Shown here: positions 1,697-14,768 of the stretch, one piece after another
How the letters are laid out: each line of letters begins with the position of its first letter
Position numbering within the stretch: position 1 is the stretch's first letter
Source of the DNA: Candidatus Auribacterota bacterium
Lineage (GTDB): Bacteria; Auribacterota; JAFGBW01
NCBI GenBank assembly: GCA_016932965.1
Contig: JAFGBW010000229.1
Location: forward strand, 1-14,768
Direction of reading: 5' to 3'
Length of the DNA: 14,768 bases
Notes under the pieces: generated by a model
The model's database searches: none
Told to the model about the DNA's origin: nothing
What the model saw: the letters and a program-made list of their open reading frames with translations, nothing else
Program-made: the position numbers and the translations under genes

Positions 1697-3649
1697 ATGA
1701 AGTTGAATATCGTTAGAACGATGATCCTATTATCTGTATTCTGCATCTGTCCATCCAGCCATGGATCGGCCATCAATCACAGCCTGGGACCTTTATCGGA
1801 CTTTGCGAAAACAGGTTCAGATGTCGCAGAAACATCCAATTCTTTACTTGCCGAACAGCAGACCAGAGCATTACTAAATATTTTTCTGGTTCAATTAAAC
1901 ACTGTCGCCCTGAAGAAACATCATGAAGACATCAGCAAAGTGATAGGGATTCTTCAATGTGAATCGCATGAAAGAATGCTGTCCAGTATTGCCCAGTACG
2001 AAAATGCTGAATCAATGACTGAATCAATGAAAAAAATCAGGGAACTGGTTGCTGAAAGACAATTGAATCCCTTATCCGCTCCGGATATTTTGGTTTTCTG
2101 GCCCGTTCTTATTGAATTGATAAATAAGACGAATGATCATGATGATTATCATCTTGTGACTGATTTTATCGAACTCAATCAAAACCGCCTTGGTGCAGAT
2201 GCAATCGGACAATTGGACTGGAAAAGTTATTTAAGAGACTATGCTTATACAAGTTTTTTTGGATTCATGATGGATGGAGATGTCCGTCTTATCACGCCGG
2301 ATTATCATAAACATGCACGTTCCATTGAAGACGTTATATTTTATTTACACATCCTGACTTTGACCAAATTGATATCGGACGGGCCAAGAACCCCTCTTTC
2401 CCTTTTCAGGACAAATTATCTGGATGACGTTGTGCGTTATGTGCGGCGGATTATGGATGATCTGGGTTCAGATCCGTCAAAAATAGAAACCATCAAAAAA
2501 GAACTCGACGTATTGGTTCCGGCAGGAAGCCCAAAAAGAATCTATCTGCAATTCATCAGCGATATTTTTGACATAACTCTTGCAAACAGGACGCCGGATG
2601 AAAAAACAGAAGGAGAACAGTTGGAAATACCTGAAAGATTAATTGAATTAACAACAGCTGAAAAAGCTGCAAACGTGATAAAAAACTTTTCATCCGTATG
2701 GAGTGTAACCGGCCTGCCTTCCAGATGGGGATTGAATCAATATTTCACCGATACCCGATTTTCACGCGGTGTCTTTACCCCGTTTGTCGATGCGTTATGC
2801 ACCGATACATCATTCTATATTGATTTGTTCAGGATTTGTTACCGGAGGGATCTAAGAGGACTTTCTCAGGTTCCTATTTTGGCTTACATGTTCGAGCACA
2901 TTTATCCCGGTATATTTCCTGACGGAGAAGATTATCAAATTCTTCCGGGTTCCAACGGGCATCTCTATTTTTGGTGCAAATACCTTGTTGAACAAAGACG
3001 AGACGTTTTATATGGGCTTTTTGCCACATTCACCAGTCCTGTAGTCAGGACGGACCTGGATTTAGGTCCTCATGAAGACCCTTATCAGGCTAAACGAGCC
3101 TATAAAGAACACGTGGTGGATTTTATGGGTGATTTTTTTGAAAGGGCCAGAGTTTCAGGGACTTTGGAGGAAAATCCCTTGATCACAGAAATCGGGGTCA
3201 GCACAGGACATAGTTGCCAGCATTATCTGAAAGAAGCCAAAAGAACTTATCCGCACGTTTTATTCAGAGGAACAGATATTGTCCATTATCCTGATTCTGT
3301 TTTAAAAGATGATGAATTCATTTTGCACGATATTTTGTCTTCCCCGCTGCCTTTGCGGCCTGATGTTATTGTTTTTGTGAATGTTAACGTCCATTTGTCT
3401 CCTGGTCATTTTGATACACAGAAGATCAGTGGAGGCGGCAGAGAGAAGGCGTGGAAAAATATTTTATCTTCTGCAAAGGAAGGGACTGTTATTATTTCAG
3501 GCACAGATGAATTTGAATACTGGATCGTTGAAAACAGAAGGCTTGTTCAAGTTCAAAACGCTGAGGAAGCGATAGAAAGAATTGCCGGAATCAGATTACA
3601 ACACAGGACGATCTCCACTCCGGTTTCACCACACTCACGTGCAAGCTAA
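1697..3649 (+). CDS. Exported protein with C-terminal SAM-methyltransferase-like domain
   Basis: A 650-residue protein. Residues 1-25 look like a Sec signal peptide (K3 and R7, hydrophobic core TMILLSVFCIC, cleavage after GSA at 25). Residues about 40-480 are mostly helical and I do not recognise them. Residues about 490-640 look like a class I SAM methyltransferase, closest in style to CheR: glycine loop EIGVSTGH (498-505), acidic end of strand 2 in RGTDIV (D527), and DVIVFVNVNVHLS (from D556), where CheR enzymes have a similar strand with an Asn. ATG 1697 is the first start after an in-frame stop; GAGAGG lies about 12 bases upstream. SAM is not expected outside the cytoplasm, so an exported methyltransferase domain is odd: the domain may be catalytically dead or repurposed, or the leader may be an uncleaved anchor. 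It stands alone, with its own promoter. Confidence 0.8.
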   Translation: MKLNIVRTMILLSVFCICPSSHGSAINHSLGPLSDFAKTGSDVAETSNSLLAEQQTRALLNIFLVQLNTVALKKHHEDISKVIGILQCESHERMLSSIAQYENAESMTESMKKIRELVAERQLNPLSAPDILVFWPVLIELINKTNDHDDYHLVTDFIELNQNRLGADAIGQLDWKSYLRDYAYTSFFGFMMDGDVRLITPDYHKHARSIEDVIFYLHILTLTKLISDGPRTPLSLFRTNYLDDVVRYVRRIMDDLGSDPSKIETIKKELDVLVPAGSPKRIYLQFISDIFDITLANRTPDEKTEGEQLEIPERLIELTTAEKAANVIKNFSSVWSVTGLPSRWGLNQYFTDTRFSRGVFTPFVDALCTDTSFYIDLFRICYRRDLRGLSQVPILAYMFEHIYPGIFPDGEDYQILPGSNGHLYFWCKYLVEQRRDVLYGLFATFTSPVVRTDLDLGPHEDPYQAKRAYKEHVVDFMGDFFERARVSGTLEENPLITEIGVSTGHSCQHYLKEAKRTYPHVLFRGTDIVHYPDSVLKDDEFILHDILSSPLPLRPDVIVFVNVNVHLSPGHFDTQKISGGGREKAWKNILSSAKEGTVIISGTDEFEYWIVENRRLVQVQNAEEAIERIAGIRLQHRTISTPVSPHSRAS

Positions 3650-3852: not shown

Positions 3853-4683
3853 TCAATCACGGGCCGCATTTTTATGAATGATATTTCTATAGGGATAGGG
3901 GATCTCAATCCCCTGTTTATTAAAACGTTCCTTGATGGATTGATTCAGGTCGCAAATCATGTCAAAGGCTTCTGTGTGATTGCGGGCCCAGACCCATGCC
4001 CGCAGGTTGACGGAGGATTCTCCAAACCCCACTATCCTCACCTTGACGGGGGACAGGCCTTTCTTTTTCTCTTCTTTTGTACGGTTGTCAAAAAAATCCG
4101 GATGCTTCATCACCTCTTCTTCAATGATTTTCATGGCCTTGTTGTGGTCGGAATCATAGCCGATGCCGATTTCAAAAAACTTGCATATGGTTTCATCCAC
4201 AATATTGGCGTTTTCGATGACTTCCGTGCTGACAATGGCATTGGGAATGATGATCCTCTTGTTTTCAAATGTCTTGATGATGGTATGCCTCAGAGTGATA
4301 TCCTCGATCGTACCGATGATATCTTTCCCGATGAATTTGACCTTGTCTCCGATGCTGAACGGCTTGAAGATGGCTATAAAAAAGGCGCTGATGATGTTTG
4401 CCAGTGCATGCTGAGCCGCAAATCCGATGACAATTGCGATCACTCCCGAGCTGGCAAGGATGGATCCTGTCAGATGGCGAAGAGGCGGAATGACGTAAAT
4501 GCACAGCAGCCCTCCCAGAAAGTAAACCACCCCGAAAAGCAGGTAGGCATAAAATCTCAGCGGATTCCATGTGCCGCTGTCCAGCCGGCTGTTTTTGAAT
4601 ATGAATTTTCTAAGCAAGACAACCGAAAACCGCGTGCTGAACACGATCAATAACACAAGAAAAAATTTCTGAGTCATCTCCAT
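3853..4683 (-). CDS. MscS-family mechanosensitive ion channel
   Basis: A 276-residue small-conductance mechanosensitive channel of the inner membrane, which would release solutes on hypo-osmotic shock. Three membrane segments fit the minimal MscS plan: about 4-24, 43-65 and the pore helix 74-106, which reads SSGVIAIVIGFAAQHALANI and then KPFSIGDKV (107-115), the family's signature at the start of the beta domain. The beta domain follows (GTIEDITLRHTII, KRIIIPNAIV), then the alpha/beta C-terminal domain ending with KERFNKQGIEIPYPYR, typical of the family. Length is close to E. coli MscS (286). The start is the ATG at 4683; the best purine run (AAGGGA) is rather far upstream, so a weak ribosome site is likely. 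It has no operon partner. Confidence 0.93.
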   Translation of the reverse strand: MEMTQKFFLVLLIVFSTRFSVVLLRKFIFKNSRLDSGTWNPLRFYAYLLFGVVYFLGGLLCIYVIPPLRHLTGSILASSGVIAIVIGFAAQHALANIISAFFIAIFKPFSIGDKVKFIGKDIIGTIEDITLRHTIIKTFENKRIIIPNAIVSTEVIENANIVDETICKFFEIGIGYDSDHNKAMKIIEEEVMKHPDFFDNRTKEEKKKGLSPVKVRIVGFGESSVNLRAWVWARNHTEAFDMICDLNQSIKERFNKQGIEIPYPYRNIIHKNAARD

Positions 4684-8290: not shown

Positions 8291-9745
8291 TTATGGAAAA
8301 AACCTGGTTTTTATTCCTCCATGAAAAGTGGAAATACAAATGGATGTGCCCAGAGAAAAAATTCTGAAAGGTTTTTTCCAAAAAAGACGAAAAATTTTTG
8401 TACGAAAACCAATGCCCAAATAAAAATCCCTCTGAATTTTCCTAAAAAAATATTTCAATCGACCTTCATCTAAAAAACGGGTTTTCATAACGGGAAAATC
8501 CCCAGTCCAATGAGATAAATTGAAATCAAAAATTAAGTTTTCGGAATCAGCTATTTTTCTGATAGGAGTTCCGTTAAAAGGAATACAAAAGGAAAGTCCC
8601 AGAATATCAACGGGAAGAGTTCGAAAAAAATCCAGATTTCGGTTTAAATCAACCTCTGTTTCCCATGGAAAGCCAATGATTGCAGTTCCCAAAATCTGAA
8701 TATCCGCATCCATTAAATATTTGGCGGTCGTTTTAATTCGGGAGATGGAAGTTTGTTTATTTATTTTTTTCAATCCCTCATCGCTCCCTGTTTCAATTCC
8801 TAAATTTACAAAACAACATCCGGCTTTCCTCATATTTTTTGCCAATGCGGAAGTTACGTTTTCAGCACTGACAGTTGAGCACCAGGGGATTTTAATGTTG
8901 CGAGTTAAGAGCCCATCGCAAATTTCCATAATTCTTTCCGGGAAGGCTGAAAAATCTTCATCAATAAAGGCAATCAAATTTGCTTTGTATTTTGTATATA
9001 AAAGTTGAATTTCATCCAAAACCTGGGAAACAGGACGAAGAATCAATTCAGTTCCCCGTATAACCGGCGTCTGACAGAAAACGCATTTTTTTCTACAACC
9101 ACGTGCTGATTGAACTGTAAAAAAATTTTGACCAAACGGCCAGACATCAGCGATTCCAAGCCAGTGATATGGTGAAGGATTCATATCATCTCTATAGGGA
9201 ATGCCAAAAGATTCCAAAGACTTTATTCTGGGCTGCGGCGGATTATGAATGATTTCCTGTTTGGTTTTAAAACTCAATCCATTGATTTGCCTCATCTTTT
9301 TTTCATCACCAAGGCCCTGCAGCAATGATTTAAAAGGTTCTTCTCCTTCCCCTCTGATAACCATATCCACTGAATCTTCAGCCAATACTTCCTTATTCCC
9401 ACTCACGTGATAACCACCGAATACAATTGGAATTTCATGATTCCATGATTTGATTTGTCTGGCTATATTTAAGGCATGCGGGAACTCGTGTGTTGTGGAC
9501 GTAATTCCAATCAAATGGGGTTTGATTTTTTTTAAAGATAGCAACAATCCTGATGATGTTCTGTTTTCTTTTTGTGCCTGGTCCAGAATGATGACTTCAT
9601 TTCCCAGTGACTTTGCAACTTGTGAAATGCAAATAAGCCCCAAAGGCTCAAAAAGGGAATCCCACGTTTTAGACCAATCCAATCGTGGTTTAATCAACAC
9701 TATCCTTAAACGATCCGCATTAATTAATGATTGATAGCAAATCAT
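8291..9745 (-). CDS. B12-binding-type radical SAM enzyme
   Basis: A 484-residue protein of the cobalamin-type radical SAM superfamily (BchE/HpnR-like architecture), cytoplasmic. Residues about 12-150 match the B12-binding fold (RIVLIKPR, EPLGLICISQVAKSLG, FGGYHVS at 109-115, VIRGEGEEPF at 129-138). The usual cobalamin-ligand motif DxHxxG is not seen, so B12 may not be bound in the standard way. The radical SAM core starts with SARGCRKKCVFC, giving the CxxxCxxC iron-sulfur ligands C217, C221 and C224, and continues with FIDEDF, NLGIETGS (about 314-321) and GTAIIGFPWET (353-363). The last 100 residues are basic and aromatic. Substrate is unknown; relatives methylate or rearrange lipids, tetrapyrroles and antibiotics. 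The ATG at 9745 has no good ribosome site. The gene looks more AT-rich than the flanking acyltransferase and nuclease genes. Confidence 0.9.
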   Translation of the reverse strand: MICYQSLINADRLRIVLIKPRLDWSKTWDSLFEPLGLICISQVAKSLGNEVIILDQAQKENRTSSGLLLSLKKIKPHLIGITSTTHEFPHALNIARQIKSWNHEIPIVFGGYHVSGNKEVLAEDSVDMVIRGEGEEPFKSLLQGLGDEKKMRQINGLSFKTKQEIIHNPPQPRIKSLESFGIPYRDDMNPSPYHWLGIADVWPFGQNFFTVQSARGCRKKCVFCQTPVIRGTELILRPVSQVLDEIQLLYTKYKANLIAFIDEDFSAFPERIMEICDGLLTRNIKIPWCSTVSAENVTSALAKNMRKAGCCFVNLGIETGSDEGLKKINKQTSISRIKTTAKYLMDADIQILGTAIIGFPWETEVDLNRNLDFFRTLPVDILGLSFCIPFNGTPIRKIADSENLIFDFNLSHWTGDFPVMKTRFLDEGRLKYFFRKIQRDFYLGIGFRTKIFRLFWKKPFRIFSLGTSICISTFHGGIKTRFFP

Positions 9746-10456: not shown

Positions 10457-11854
10457 ATGAACACGGCGGCCAGTAAAATACAATACAAATTTATTCTTCC
10501 ATATATTTTGTTTATTCAAATTGCCTGCATGACTTCTTTTGTATCAGCTTTAGACTTTCTGGCCCCCGAGAGCAGAACCGCTAAAATCACCGGTTTCTTG
10601 GATGAGGGGGATGACCAATCACAAAAAAATTTAGGAATAAAACTGGAAAATTTGATTGTCCAAACTGCCGAACAAAATACCGGATTACGAGAAACGCAAT
10701 CTGACCCTTTTGATACGGCTTTACTCAGTTTATCCGCTTTGGAGAAAGGGCTTTTTACTCCCGACCAGGCCGCTAAATATGTCGTACCAATTATCCATTA
10801 TTATTTGGATCCGGGATCATTTGATTACTACGCCGCCGGACTTCTGGTGCTCCATGCTCTTCATTTGAGATTGCCCGGCGTTACTGCCGTCATGCTTGAA
10901 CAGGCTTTCAGGGAAGTCGAAGGGGTACAACATGAAGGAGATCATGCGAAGATGATACTGGATTATATCGAAGATGATCCGCCGCCTCCGGAACAGAAAG
11001 AAGCGGTCAACGCTATTATAGAAAAATATATTGGGCCGGAGTTTTATGCCCGCACTCCGGACGTTGTGTCAACTTATGACGCGGCAATACGTGATATCAA
11101 TACTCATTTTATGCAAGGACGAAACGTTCGTGCGCGGAAATTTTTATTATTATTGTTTGAAACCTATCCGGAAAAAGCTGATGAGATCATTAAAAAAATA
11201 TGGGAAGGTTCTAATCTTCCGGTTGCTTTTATTAAAAAGATTATTCGTCGTTTTCATGCATCCATCACGGTTGAATCAATCAATCACCTTTTTGATACTT
11301 ATTTCACCCATTATCCCGTTAAAGCGGCTGAGATTGCAGTTGCATCCTTGGTATATCATGTGGCCGGTTGTCAAGAAATGCTTCCAATATGGAGAGAGCG
11401 TCTTGCCGATACTACCGGTAGAAGCCGCCCGTTGGAGGAGCGGAATTACCTTCTTTATGTAATCGATTTTGCGGCGGCAGGCGCAGGGGTAGAAGGCTTT
11501 ACTCTGGCTGCGGCTGAACAGGAAGTCGATTCGTTTTTCCAATCTTTAGGGAAAACGCCGGACATCGATTATGCTTATACGGCTGCTGCCGAAATTATAG
11601 AGAATAAAAATCCCTTAATCGACGCGCGTCTGGTCAAAAAATGGATGCTGCATTGCATAGAAGGGGGCAGACTCGACATGGCCGCAGATTTATTGCGCAT
11701 TGCCTTAGACGAAGGGGTCGAAGGATTCACTAAAGCCGATGTGGAAACGGTGTTACAGGAGAGCTTAAGCCGAAAGGATCCTTTAAGCGCGGCGCATCTG
11801 GGAATCAGCTCGCTGGCGGCCCTGAAAAAAAATCCCGCGATTTTCTGCGCCTGA
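10457..11854 (+). CDS. Exported all-helical protein of unknown function
   Basis: A 465-residue protein with a Sec signal peptide (hydrophobic FILPYILFIQIACMTSF, cleavage after VSA at residue 31). The mature chain is almost wholly predicted helix with pairs of amphipathic helices, for example 215-300 (FLLLLFETYPEKADEIIKKI and IRRFHASITVESINHLFDTY), which suggests a HEAT/TPR-like solenoid, but I see no regular repeat phase. No catalytic motif is evident. The mature N-terminus SALDFLAPESRTAKITG resembles SAINHSLGPLSDFAKTG of the 650-residue exported protein at 1697-3649, so the two may belong to one family of exported proteins. ATG 10457 is the first start after an in-frame stop (10451-10453). 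No ribosome-binding purine run precedes it, so initiation may be weak or leaderless. It is transcribed alone. Confidence 0.75.
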   Translation: MNTAASKIQYKFILPYILFIQIACMTSFVSALDFLAPESRTAKITGFLDEGDDQSQKNLGIKLENLIVQTAEQNTGLRETQSDPFDTALLSLSALEKGLFTPDQAAKYVVPIIHYYLDPGSFDYYAAGLLVLHALHLRLPGVTAVMLEQAFREVEGVQHEGDHAKMILDYIEDDPPPPEQKEAVNAIIEKYIGPEFYARTPDVVSTYDAAIRDINTHFMQGRNVRARKFLLLLFETYPEKADEIIKKIWEGSNLPVAFIKKIIRRFHASITVESINHLFDTYFTHYPVKAAEIAVASLVYHVAGCQEMLPIWRERLADTTGRSRPLEERNYLLYVIDFAAAGAGVEGFTLAAAEQEVDSFFQSLGKTPDIDYAYTAAAEIIENKNPLIDARLVKKWMLHCIEGGRLDMAADLLRIALDEGVEGFTKADVETVLQESLSRKDPLSAAHLGISSLAALKKNPAIFCA

Positions 11855-12874: not shown

Positions 12875-14768
12875 ATGTCTTTCATAGCGGATCTGCACAT
12901 TCATTCCCATTTATCCAGGGCCACGTCCCCTGAAAACAGGCTGGACATCTTGTCTGCCTGGGCGCATATAAAAGGCATCCAGGTCCTGGCCTCCGGGGAT
13001 TTCAGCCATCCTGAGTGGTACAGTGAAATCCGGGAAAACCTGGTTGAGGCGGAACCCGGTCTTTACAAGATAAAGAACCCGAAACAGATCTCTCTGGGAA
13101 ACCATCTCAAGGCAGACACCGGGAAAACCCGGTTTATTCTGTGCGTGGAGATCAGCAGTATTTATAAAAAAAACAACCGCGTGTATAAGAACCACAATCT
13201 GGTATTTGCGCCGGATCTGGTGTCCGCGGCCAAAATCAACGCCAAACTGGCTGCTATCGGCAATATTGAATCAGACGGTCGGCCTATATTGGGGCTTGAT
13301 GCCAGACATCTCCTGGAGATCATTTTGGAAATCTCCGAACAAGCTTACCTTGTTCCGGCGCACATCTGGACGCCGTGGTTTTCGCTGTTGGGGTCCAAAT
13401 CCGGATTCAACTCAGTGGAGGAATGTTTTGAAGACCTGACTTCACACATTTTCGCCTTGGAGACAGGGCTGTCATCGGACCCGGACATGAACTGGATGGT
13501 TTCCTCCCTGGACAGGTATTCTCTGATTTCCAATTCTGATTCCCACTCTCCTGAAAAACTAGGCAGGGAGGCCAATCTCTTTAATTGCCCCATGGATTAT
13601 TTTTCACTGTTCAAGGCATTGAAAACCAAACAGGGGTTTTCAGGCACCATTGAATTTTTCCCTGAAGAAGGGAAATACCATTTTGACGGCCACCGCAAAT
13701 GCCATGTCATGTTGCATCCTGAAGAAACCAAAAAGCACCATTCCCTGTGTCCGGTATGCGGGAAAGAGCTGACGATTGGCGTGATGAACCGGGTCTGGGA
13801 GATCGCTGACAGGAAAAAACCGGAGAAACCAAACCCATCCGGGGATTTCCATCATCTGATCCCCTTGAAGGAAGTGGCGGCTGAAACACTGGGGATCTCC
13901 ATTCAGTCCAAAAAAACCGGTGAAGAATACGGGAGGCTTATATCGCAATATGGATCGGAATTCAACGTGCTTCATCATCTTCCTGAAACGGAATTTGAGC
14001 ATGATTCCAACCCGCTTTTAAAAGAGGCGATTCACAGGATGAGGGAAGGAAACGTGATCAAAGAACCGGGCTATGACGGGGAATACGGGATCATCAAAAT
14101 TTTCAGGGAAAAGGAACGGGAAAACCTGTTGGGACAGGGAAATCTTTTTTCAGGTTTAATGGGTCCGAAAACAAAAGCCCCTGTTAAAAGCCGGCCCGTG
14201 AAGAAGGAATTGAATGAACCCCGGCCTGTTTCCGTTCCGGCAGGCAGGGAATGGAATCAGGAACAGAAACTGGCGGTGGAAAATGAAGATCCGGCTCTCA
14301 TCATCACAGCCGGGCCGGGCACGGGCAAGACCTGGACGATGACCAAAAAAATCGCATCATTGGTTCTGAAAAAAAACAAATCTCCTGAATCCATTCTGGC
14401 GATTACTTTCACAAACCGCGCAGTCAATGAAATGAAAACACGGCTTCAGGGTTTGCTGGGGAAGAAAGCTGATTCCCTGACGGTCTGCACCATTCACCGG
14501 CTTTGTCTTTCCATACTGGAAGACAGCGCTTCATCCAAACAGATGATTGTGGACGGGGAAGAAAGAATGGCCATCATGCACTATCTTTTTCCTGATTTAA
14601 GTTCTTCAGCGATTCAGTCTGTGATCGGGGAAATCAGCCTGTCCGACAAGATGGCATTTTCTCATACGCAGAACAAACCACAGGAATCTGAAACCGGAAC
14701 CCTTATCAAACGATATAAAAGTTATCTGAATGAAAACAACCTGTTGGATTTGGACAGCCTGATATTCA
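12875..14768 (+). CDS. Endonuclease Q-like PHP nuclease fused to UvrD-type helicase, 3' end outside window
   Basis: 631 residues are visible and the frame runs off the end. Residues 1-240 are a PHP phosphoesterase domain with the metal residues of endonuclease Q: DLHIHS (6-11), GDFSH (41-45), E92 in CVEISSIY, H163 in PAHIWTPW and NSDSH (220-224). A zinc module follows: GHRKC (C276) and CPVCGKELTIG (C292, C295). EndoQ enzymes nick DNA 5' of deaminated bases (uracil, hypoxanthine) and abasic sites. From about 462 a superfamily 1 helicase begins: Q-motif WNQEQKLAV, Walker A AGPGTGKT (479-486), motif Ia LAITFTNRAVNEM, and TVCTIHRLC. The fusion suggests nicking at a lesion coupled to strand unwinding for repair. 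AGGA lies 7 bases before the ATG. This architecture is known in bacteria; the missing C-terminal half should hold motifs III-VI. Confidence 0.92.
   Translation, partial: MSFIADLHIHSHLSRATSPENRLDILSAWAHIKGIQVLASGDFSHPEWYSEIRENLVEAEPGLYKIKNPKQISLGNHLKADTGKTRFILCVEISSIYKKNNRVYKNHNLVFAPDLVSAAKINAKLAAIGNIESDGRPILGLDARHLLEIILEISEQAYLVPAHIWTPWFSLLGSKSGFNSVEECFEDLTSHIFALETGLSSDPDMNWMVSSLDRYSLISNSDSHSPEKLGREANLFNCPMDYFSLFKALKTKQGFSGTIEFFPEEGKYHFDGHRKCHVMLHPEETKKHHSLCPVCGKELTIGVMNRVWEIADRKKPEKPNPSGDFHHLIPLKEVAAETLGISIQSKKTGEEYGRLISQYGSEFNVLHHLPETEFEHDSNPLLKEAIHRMREGNVIKEPGYDGEYGIIKIFREKERENLLGQGNLFSGLMGPKTKAPVKSRPVKKELNEPRPVSVPAGREWNQEQKLAVENEDPALIITAGPGTGKTWTMTKKIASLVLKKNKSPESILAITFTNRAVNEMKTRLQGLLGKKADSLTVCTIHRLCLSILEDSASSKQMIVDGEERMAIMHYLFPDLSSSAIQSVIGEISLSDKMAFSHTQNKPQESETGTLIKRYKSYLNENNLLDLDSLIF

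Follow-up and report, generated by a model that had tools for sequence, protein, structure and literature searches.

A predicted exported protein with a methyltransferase-like C-terminal domain in a Candidatus Auribacterota bacterium

Introduction

The methyl donor SAM is made and kept in the cytoplasm, and class I methyltransferases are therefore assumed to act in that compartment. The window analysed here, meaning the whole stretch of 14,768 nucleotides from a Candidatus Auribacterota bacterium, contains an open reading frame (ORF) that raises the question of what a domain of this kind might do behind an export leader. A first-pass annotation of this DNA, made from the letters alone, had recognised both elements in the encoded protein and had offered three ways to reconcile them, namely a non-enzymatic relative used outside the membrane, a leader that anchors a cytoplasm-facing protein, or a true start inside the ORF.

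The gene and its start

The ORF and the signals in front of it are as follows.

1646-1674, + strand: possible sigma-70 promoter, TTGACA-17-TATCAA, read by eye
1679-1684, + strand: possible ribosome-binding site GAGAGG (which includes GAGG), 12 nt 5' of the ATG
1697-3649, + strand: ORF of 650 aa plus stop, with an ATG start, open throughout

Codon-position GC in the ORF is.49/.37/.38 and changes little between residue 26 and the stop, so that the ORF looks coding over its whole frame. The possible promoter is absent from the output of the consensus scan, whose rule demands a T at the last place. The ORF stands alone: the upstream gene on the same strand (554-1366, +), which encodes a protein with a lipoprotein-like leader, stops 330 bases earlier, while the downstream gene (3853-4683), encoding an MscS-type channel, lies on the opposite strand. 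In its own genome the ORF is single-copy, and no paralogue was found there. Elsewhere in the window, 8291-9745 (-) encodes a B12-binding radical SAM protein, with matches to both B12-binding and Radical_SAM in Pfam, and 12875-14767 (+), an ORF that runs off the contig end, encodes a UvrD-type helicase with a PHP phosphoesterase-like N-terminal region.

An internal start would yield a cytoplasmic enzyme; for example, a TTG at residue 309 would give a product of ~342 aa, and the strongest Shine-Dalgarno-like match in the ORF, AAGGAG, lies 5 nt upstream of this codon. However, AAGGAG sits in E-G-E codons, internal TTG starts are rare, and the region upstream of TTG309 is itself coding by codon-position composition. 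Furthermore, a well-formed, contiguous signal peptide begins at the first ATG, with GAGG at 12 nt, and the combination of a leader with a CheR domain recurs in the genome, as described below. An internal start is therefore not favoured, and we consider it very improbable.

The export leader

The first-pass annotation had placed a Sec-type signal peptide at the very N-terminus, and this is borne out at the level of a heuristic score, shuffles and hydropathy.

1697-1771, + strand: predicted Sec-type signal peptide, residues 1-25, with the predicted cut after HGSA

The leader reads MKLNIVRT-MILLSVFCIC-PSSHGSA and is followed by INHS. It has an n-region charge of +2, a 10-residue h-region of KD 2.97 and a short polar stretch, and its cut site is of the G-x-A type, with G at -3 and A at -1. 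It scores 4.05 with a home-made heuristic, not with SignalP; three evident leaders of the window reach 3.39, 3.93 and 4.59, and when residues 2-30 were shuffled 5000 times, 38 shuffles did as well. The heuristic gave no score for four other N-termini of the window and thereby missed a fourth evident leader, recognised by eye in the ORF that starts at 10457. A hydropathy scan of the protein found no second membrane segment, the next best 19-mer reaching 1.30.

Since a twin arginine is absent from the leader, Sec is the likely route. Sec substrates cross the membrane unfolded, and bound SAM would therefore not be carried along. In addition, K2 and R7 precede the sole hydrophobic stretch. Under the positive-inside rule this order would place the remainder of the protein outside the membrane whether the leader is cut or not. 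For the same reason, and with no second segment present, it is unlikely that the leader anchors a cytoplasm-facing protein.

The N-terminal region and the search for relatives

1772-3016, + strand: residues 26-440, belonging to no family recognisable in library searches

These residues gave no match in Pfam, NCBIfam, PHROGs, PADLOC or the PDB sequences, in agreement with the earlier statement that the roughly 440 residues between signal and domain resemble nothing recognisable. For the protein as a whole, searches of 44 genomes from the phylum turned up no relative; the matches inspected there were a Skp/OmpH coiled coil, a thioredoxin-like protein and other chance matches, all of them rejected as relatives. 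Both the whole protein and the C-terminus were run against GTDB contigs, and the C-terminus against viral contigs; these searches, which sense close relatives only, returned pattern matches but no relative, and none was found in phages and plasmids either. The protein thus appears to be a divergent singleton rather than a demonstrated member of a family.

The C-terminal domain

3152-3496, + strand: class I SAM-methyltransferase-like core, residues 486-600, from hhalign and a null of 138 real protein segments
3188-3211, + strand: motif I, EIGVSTGH, residues 498-505, from the sequence and the profile alignment
3275-3277, + strand: acidic residue of motif II, D527 (RGTDIV), from the sequence and the profile alignment
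3362-3400, + strand: motif IV strand, DVIVFVNVNVHLS, residues 556-568, from the sequence and the profile alignment

Related genomes supplied 30 Methyltransf_25 proteins, from which a class I methyltransferase profile was built. Its alignment to residues 486-600 by hhalign has a probability of 68 and a P of 4.8e-5. With hmmsearch, 15 of 2000 shuffles of the C-terminus did as well as the real sequence against this 30-sequence profile and 5 of 2000 against a 5-sequence profile. As a null made of real proteins, 138 segments of 250 residues each were taken from other ORFs. Against the methyltransferase profile the C-terminus scored 33.9 and ranked third of the 139 segments, and the only two that outscored it are true CheR domains (43.1 and 40.2). 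The remaining true CheR domains fell between 31.4 and 23.8, and no unrelated segment scored above 24.6. The match to the methyltransferase superfamily is moderate and does not lie at a curated threshold. Motif I is kept as E-x-G-x-S-T-G (E498 to G504), together with the motif II Asp.

Structure prediction was less informative. AlphaFold models predicted from the single sequence are of low quality (pLDDT 42 and 47). That of residues 474-640 (pLDDT 47, pTM 0.47) has an order of strands and helices compatible with a methyltransferase; its best Foldseek matches are SAM methyltransferases, but at a non-significant E of 0.09 or worse, and VIA-align returned mixed Rossmann-like folds, all non-significant with Z under 5. 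Both fold searches were taken as uninformative.

The resemblance might be due to chance, with the C-terminus adopting another alpha/beta fold or none that is known. This would be consistent with the fold searches, with the hhalign control, in which 1 of 300 shuffles equalled the real score, and with the libraries: Pfam gave nothing for the C-terminus even at E 10, nor did NCBIfam, PHROGs or the PDB sequences, where the few matches are weak and to unrelated proteins. On the other hand, the rank among real proteins, the order of secondary structure in the model, and an alignment of 99 columns in which motifs I, II and IV fall in register together with the last strand all argue against it, and we regard chance as improbable. 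The C-terminal domain, judged from its sequence, is likely of the class I SAM-methyltransferase type, short of proof.

Relation to CheR

The first-pass annotation had described the pattern as CheR-like. The motifs do lie where it had placed them and the class I assignment is supported, but the CheR family label is not. There is no Pfam CheR match, and home-built CheR profiles did no better on the protein than on shuffles: with profiles built from 19 CheR sequences of the ordinary kind and from 7 of the export type, 129 to 470 of 2000 shuffles were as good, or no score was obtained. A profile of four CheR sequences from giant proteins, described below, was likewise not significant against the C-terminus. 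Furthermore, only 17 residues separate the motif II Asp from the next acidic position or strand, compared with 60 in one of the export-type CheR proteins of the same genome (L072), and the CheR insert of ~60 residues is missing. Because the CheR profiles fail and the insert is absent, the CheR-like pattern is best seen as a resemblance at the superfamily level only.

Export-type CheR proteins in the same genome

True CheR domains behind leader-like segments are encoded in the genome from which the window comes. Six matches in long ORFs, which we call export-type CheR, score between 50.7 and 81.5 bits against Pfam CheR.

L072, 3696-6131: export-type CheR
L073, 3662-6787: export-type CheR
L074, 4871-7837: export-type CheR
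L075, 3905-5539, - strand: export-type CheR
L076, 4248-6686, - strand: export-type CheR
L077, 3514-4851: export-type CheR

They represent five or six genes, since two of them, C221 and C246, are partial at contig ends and may belong to one gene. They keep the SAM motifs, in the form of CSTG(E/Q)E, (S/T)DI(N/D) and a strand that reads YDL...N(I/V). Weak TPR matches occur in three of the six. A hydrophobic, leader-like segment occurs in all five whose N-terminus is present. Those of C43 and C41 score as leaders with the heuristic, and that of C221 is a good leader by eye which the filter excluded for a Gln in the h-region. In C270 and C75 the hydrophobic segment follows an unusually long N-terminal stretch, so these may be signal anchors or mis-started. 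The same genome also has a chemotaxis-type CheR (L079), which adjoins CheB- and CheA-like genes.

The export-type CheR family is more solid than the finding on ORF 1697-3649 itself. As the genome encodes true CheR domains with export leaders, an accident becomes a less likely account of the leader and domain found together in our protein. The protein could even be a degenerate member of this family. It follows the same plan of leader, N-terminal region and methyltransferase domain, and by eye it shares the short look-alikes VPILAY and TSPVVR in the same order. Nevertheless, neither the CheR profiles nor those of the family itself are significant, and no significant sequence link to the family was found with the C-terminus, the N-terminal region or the full length. 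The CheR insert and the TPR repeats that follow the domain are also absent, and we consider this origin unlikely.

Leaders on methyltransferases elsewhere

The architecture recurs in the phylum. In a genome of a sister family (G001), the 902-aa protein L078 (3437-6142, -) has a classic leader, a CheR match of 54.6 bits and TPR. Its upstream neighbour on the same strand, 75 bases away, is an EamA transporter gene. EamA proteins share their broad superfamily with the bacterial SAM transporters that are known, but because they are common, this neighbour is a lead only. In a third family (G014 and G021), L129, L130 and L132 are giant proteins, 1688 to ~5100 aa long, that carry as many as three CheR-like sites, and both N-termini inspected among such proteins are signal peptides. 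In G014, one stop codon splits the frame into a 1181-aa ORF with the leader and a 2220-aa ORF with the CheR sites. A profile of the export-type CheR, applied at E 1e-25 to a limited sample of 85 genomes from two other phyla, found nothing.

Ordinary proteins look different. An evident N-terminal leader is absent from all 17 ordinary CheR proteins that were compared, and three candidates at internal positions look spurious by eye. Among the 24 Methyltransf_25 matches of the own genome, the heuristic flags four (L094, L102, L100 and L083), of which L100 is a multi-membrane protein and L083 looks spurious, so the ordinary methyltransferases of this genome are mostly without leaders. Of the other two, both on the - strand, L094 is an isoaspartyl-methyltransferase-like ORF of 261 aa with a leader-like N-terminus, and L102 is a class I methyltransferase-like ORF of 262 aa with a leader and an unusual motif I, IIDLLSGTHT. 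A LAP-x-(S/T)-R motif soon after the leader is shared by L102 (LAPKTR) and the window ORF 10457-11854 (+) (LAPESR); its tally of 2 of 55 leadered against 0 of 181 other ORFs examined is too small to judge.

Proposed explanation

Overall, we favour, with a rough probability of 0.6, export of the protein and binding of SAM or SAH by its C-terminal domain outside the cytoplasm of the producing cell, whether or not a methyl group is transferred. Binding outside is preferred mainly because leaders are repeatedly fused to CheR domains with preserved SAM motifs, and less on account of ORF 1697-3649 itself. The protein would leave via Sec and its signal peptide would be cleaved, so that the exported product would consist of the N-terminal region of ~440 residues, of unrecognised fold, and the class I (Rossmann) methyltransferase-like domain. 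SAM or SAH might then be bound in the periplasm, at the cell surface or in another cell, and a protein side chain might perhaps be methylated there. The protein would represent a rapidly diverged, lineage-specific case of a wider habit of placing methyltransferase domains on exported proteins.

The weak point of this reading is the supply of SAM, of which no source outside the cytoplasm is known. This favours the non-enzymatic relative, in which the Rossmann fold is kept, methyl transfer is lost, and the domain has a binding or structural role outside the cell. The status of the protein as a fast-evolving, single-copy orphan and the GHS found in place of the CheR GEE point in the same direction. 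In contrast, the preserved E-x-G-x-S-T-G and motif II Asp, and the retention of SAM motifs in export-type CheR domains across two families, speak against such a loss, and we hold a purely non-enzymatic role to be doubtful.

Within the favoured reading of SAM or SAH binding outside, it is a tentative proposal that the exported set, consisting of the CheR-type proteins and the protein of ORF 1697-3649, carries out SAM-dependent methylation outside the cytoplasm of this lineage, whether in the periplasm, at the surface or in a partner cell. If true, methylation outside the cytoplasm would need a supply of SAM there, to which delivery into another cell that contains SAM would be the alternative. 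The repeated occurrence of leaders on domains with SAM motifs would accordingly mean that SAM is supplied outside, that enzymes are sent into other cells, or that the fold is re-used for binding. Class I methyltransferase-like domains are familiar in themselves. For their placement on exported proteins, and for a lineage-specific CheR family built in this way, a search of open-access literature for CheR or isoaspartyl methyltransferases that are periplasmic or carry an export tag gave no relevant description.

Comparison with known systems

Among known families, Methyltransf_25 (PF13649) resembles residues 486-600 in the register described above. The protein differs from it in staying under Pfam reporting at E 10, in the short spacing of 17 residues after the motif II Asp, and in its added export leader and N-terminal region of 440 residues. 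With CheR (PF01739), for which 1af7, 1bc5 and 5ftw are solved structures, it shares the STG of motif I, the Asp of motif II and an Asn in the motif IV strand; unlike CheR, it has GHS instead of GEE and a leader, and lacks both the insert and a significant profile match.

In behaviour, the protein can be likened to secreted effectors such as Rv1988 of Mycobacterium tuberculosis, a secreted methyltransferase of an intracellular bacterium, in that a methyltransferase would act, with SAM found elsewhere, after leaving the cell that made it; no relation in sequence is claimed. There is a likeness in plan to the export-type CheR proteins, of which L072-L077 come from the same organism and L078 from G001. 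These differ from it in being true CheR by Pfam, several of them with TPR, and such better-conserved members would offer a handle on SAM-dependent chemistry outside the producing cytoplasm.
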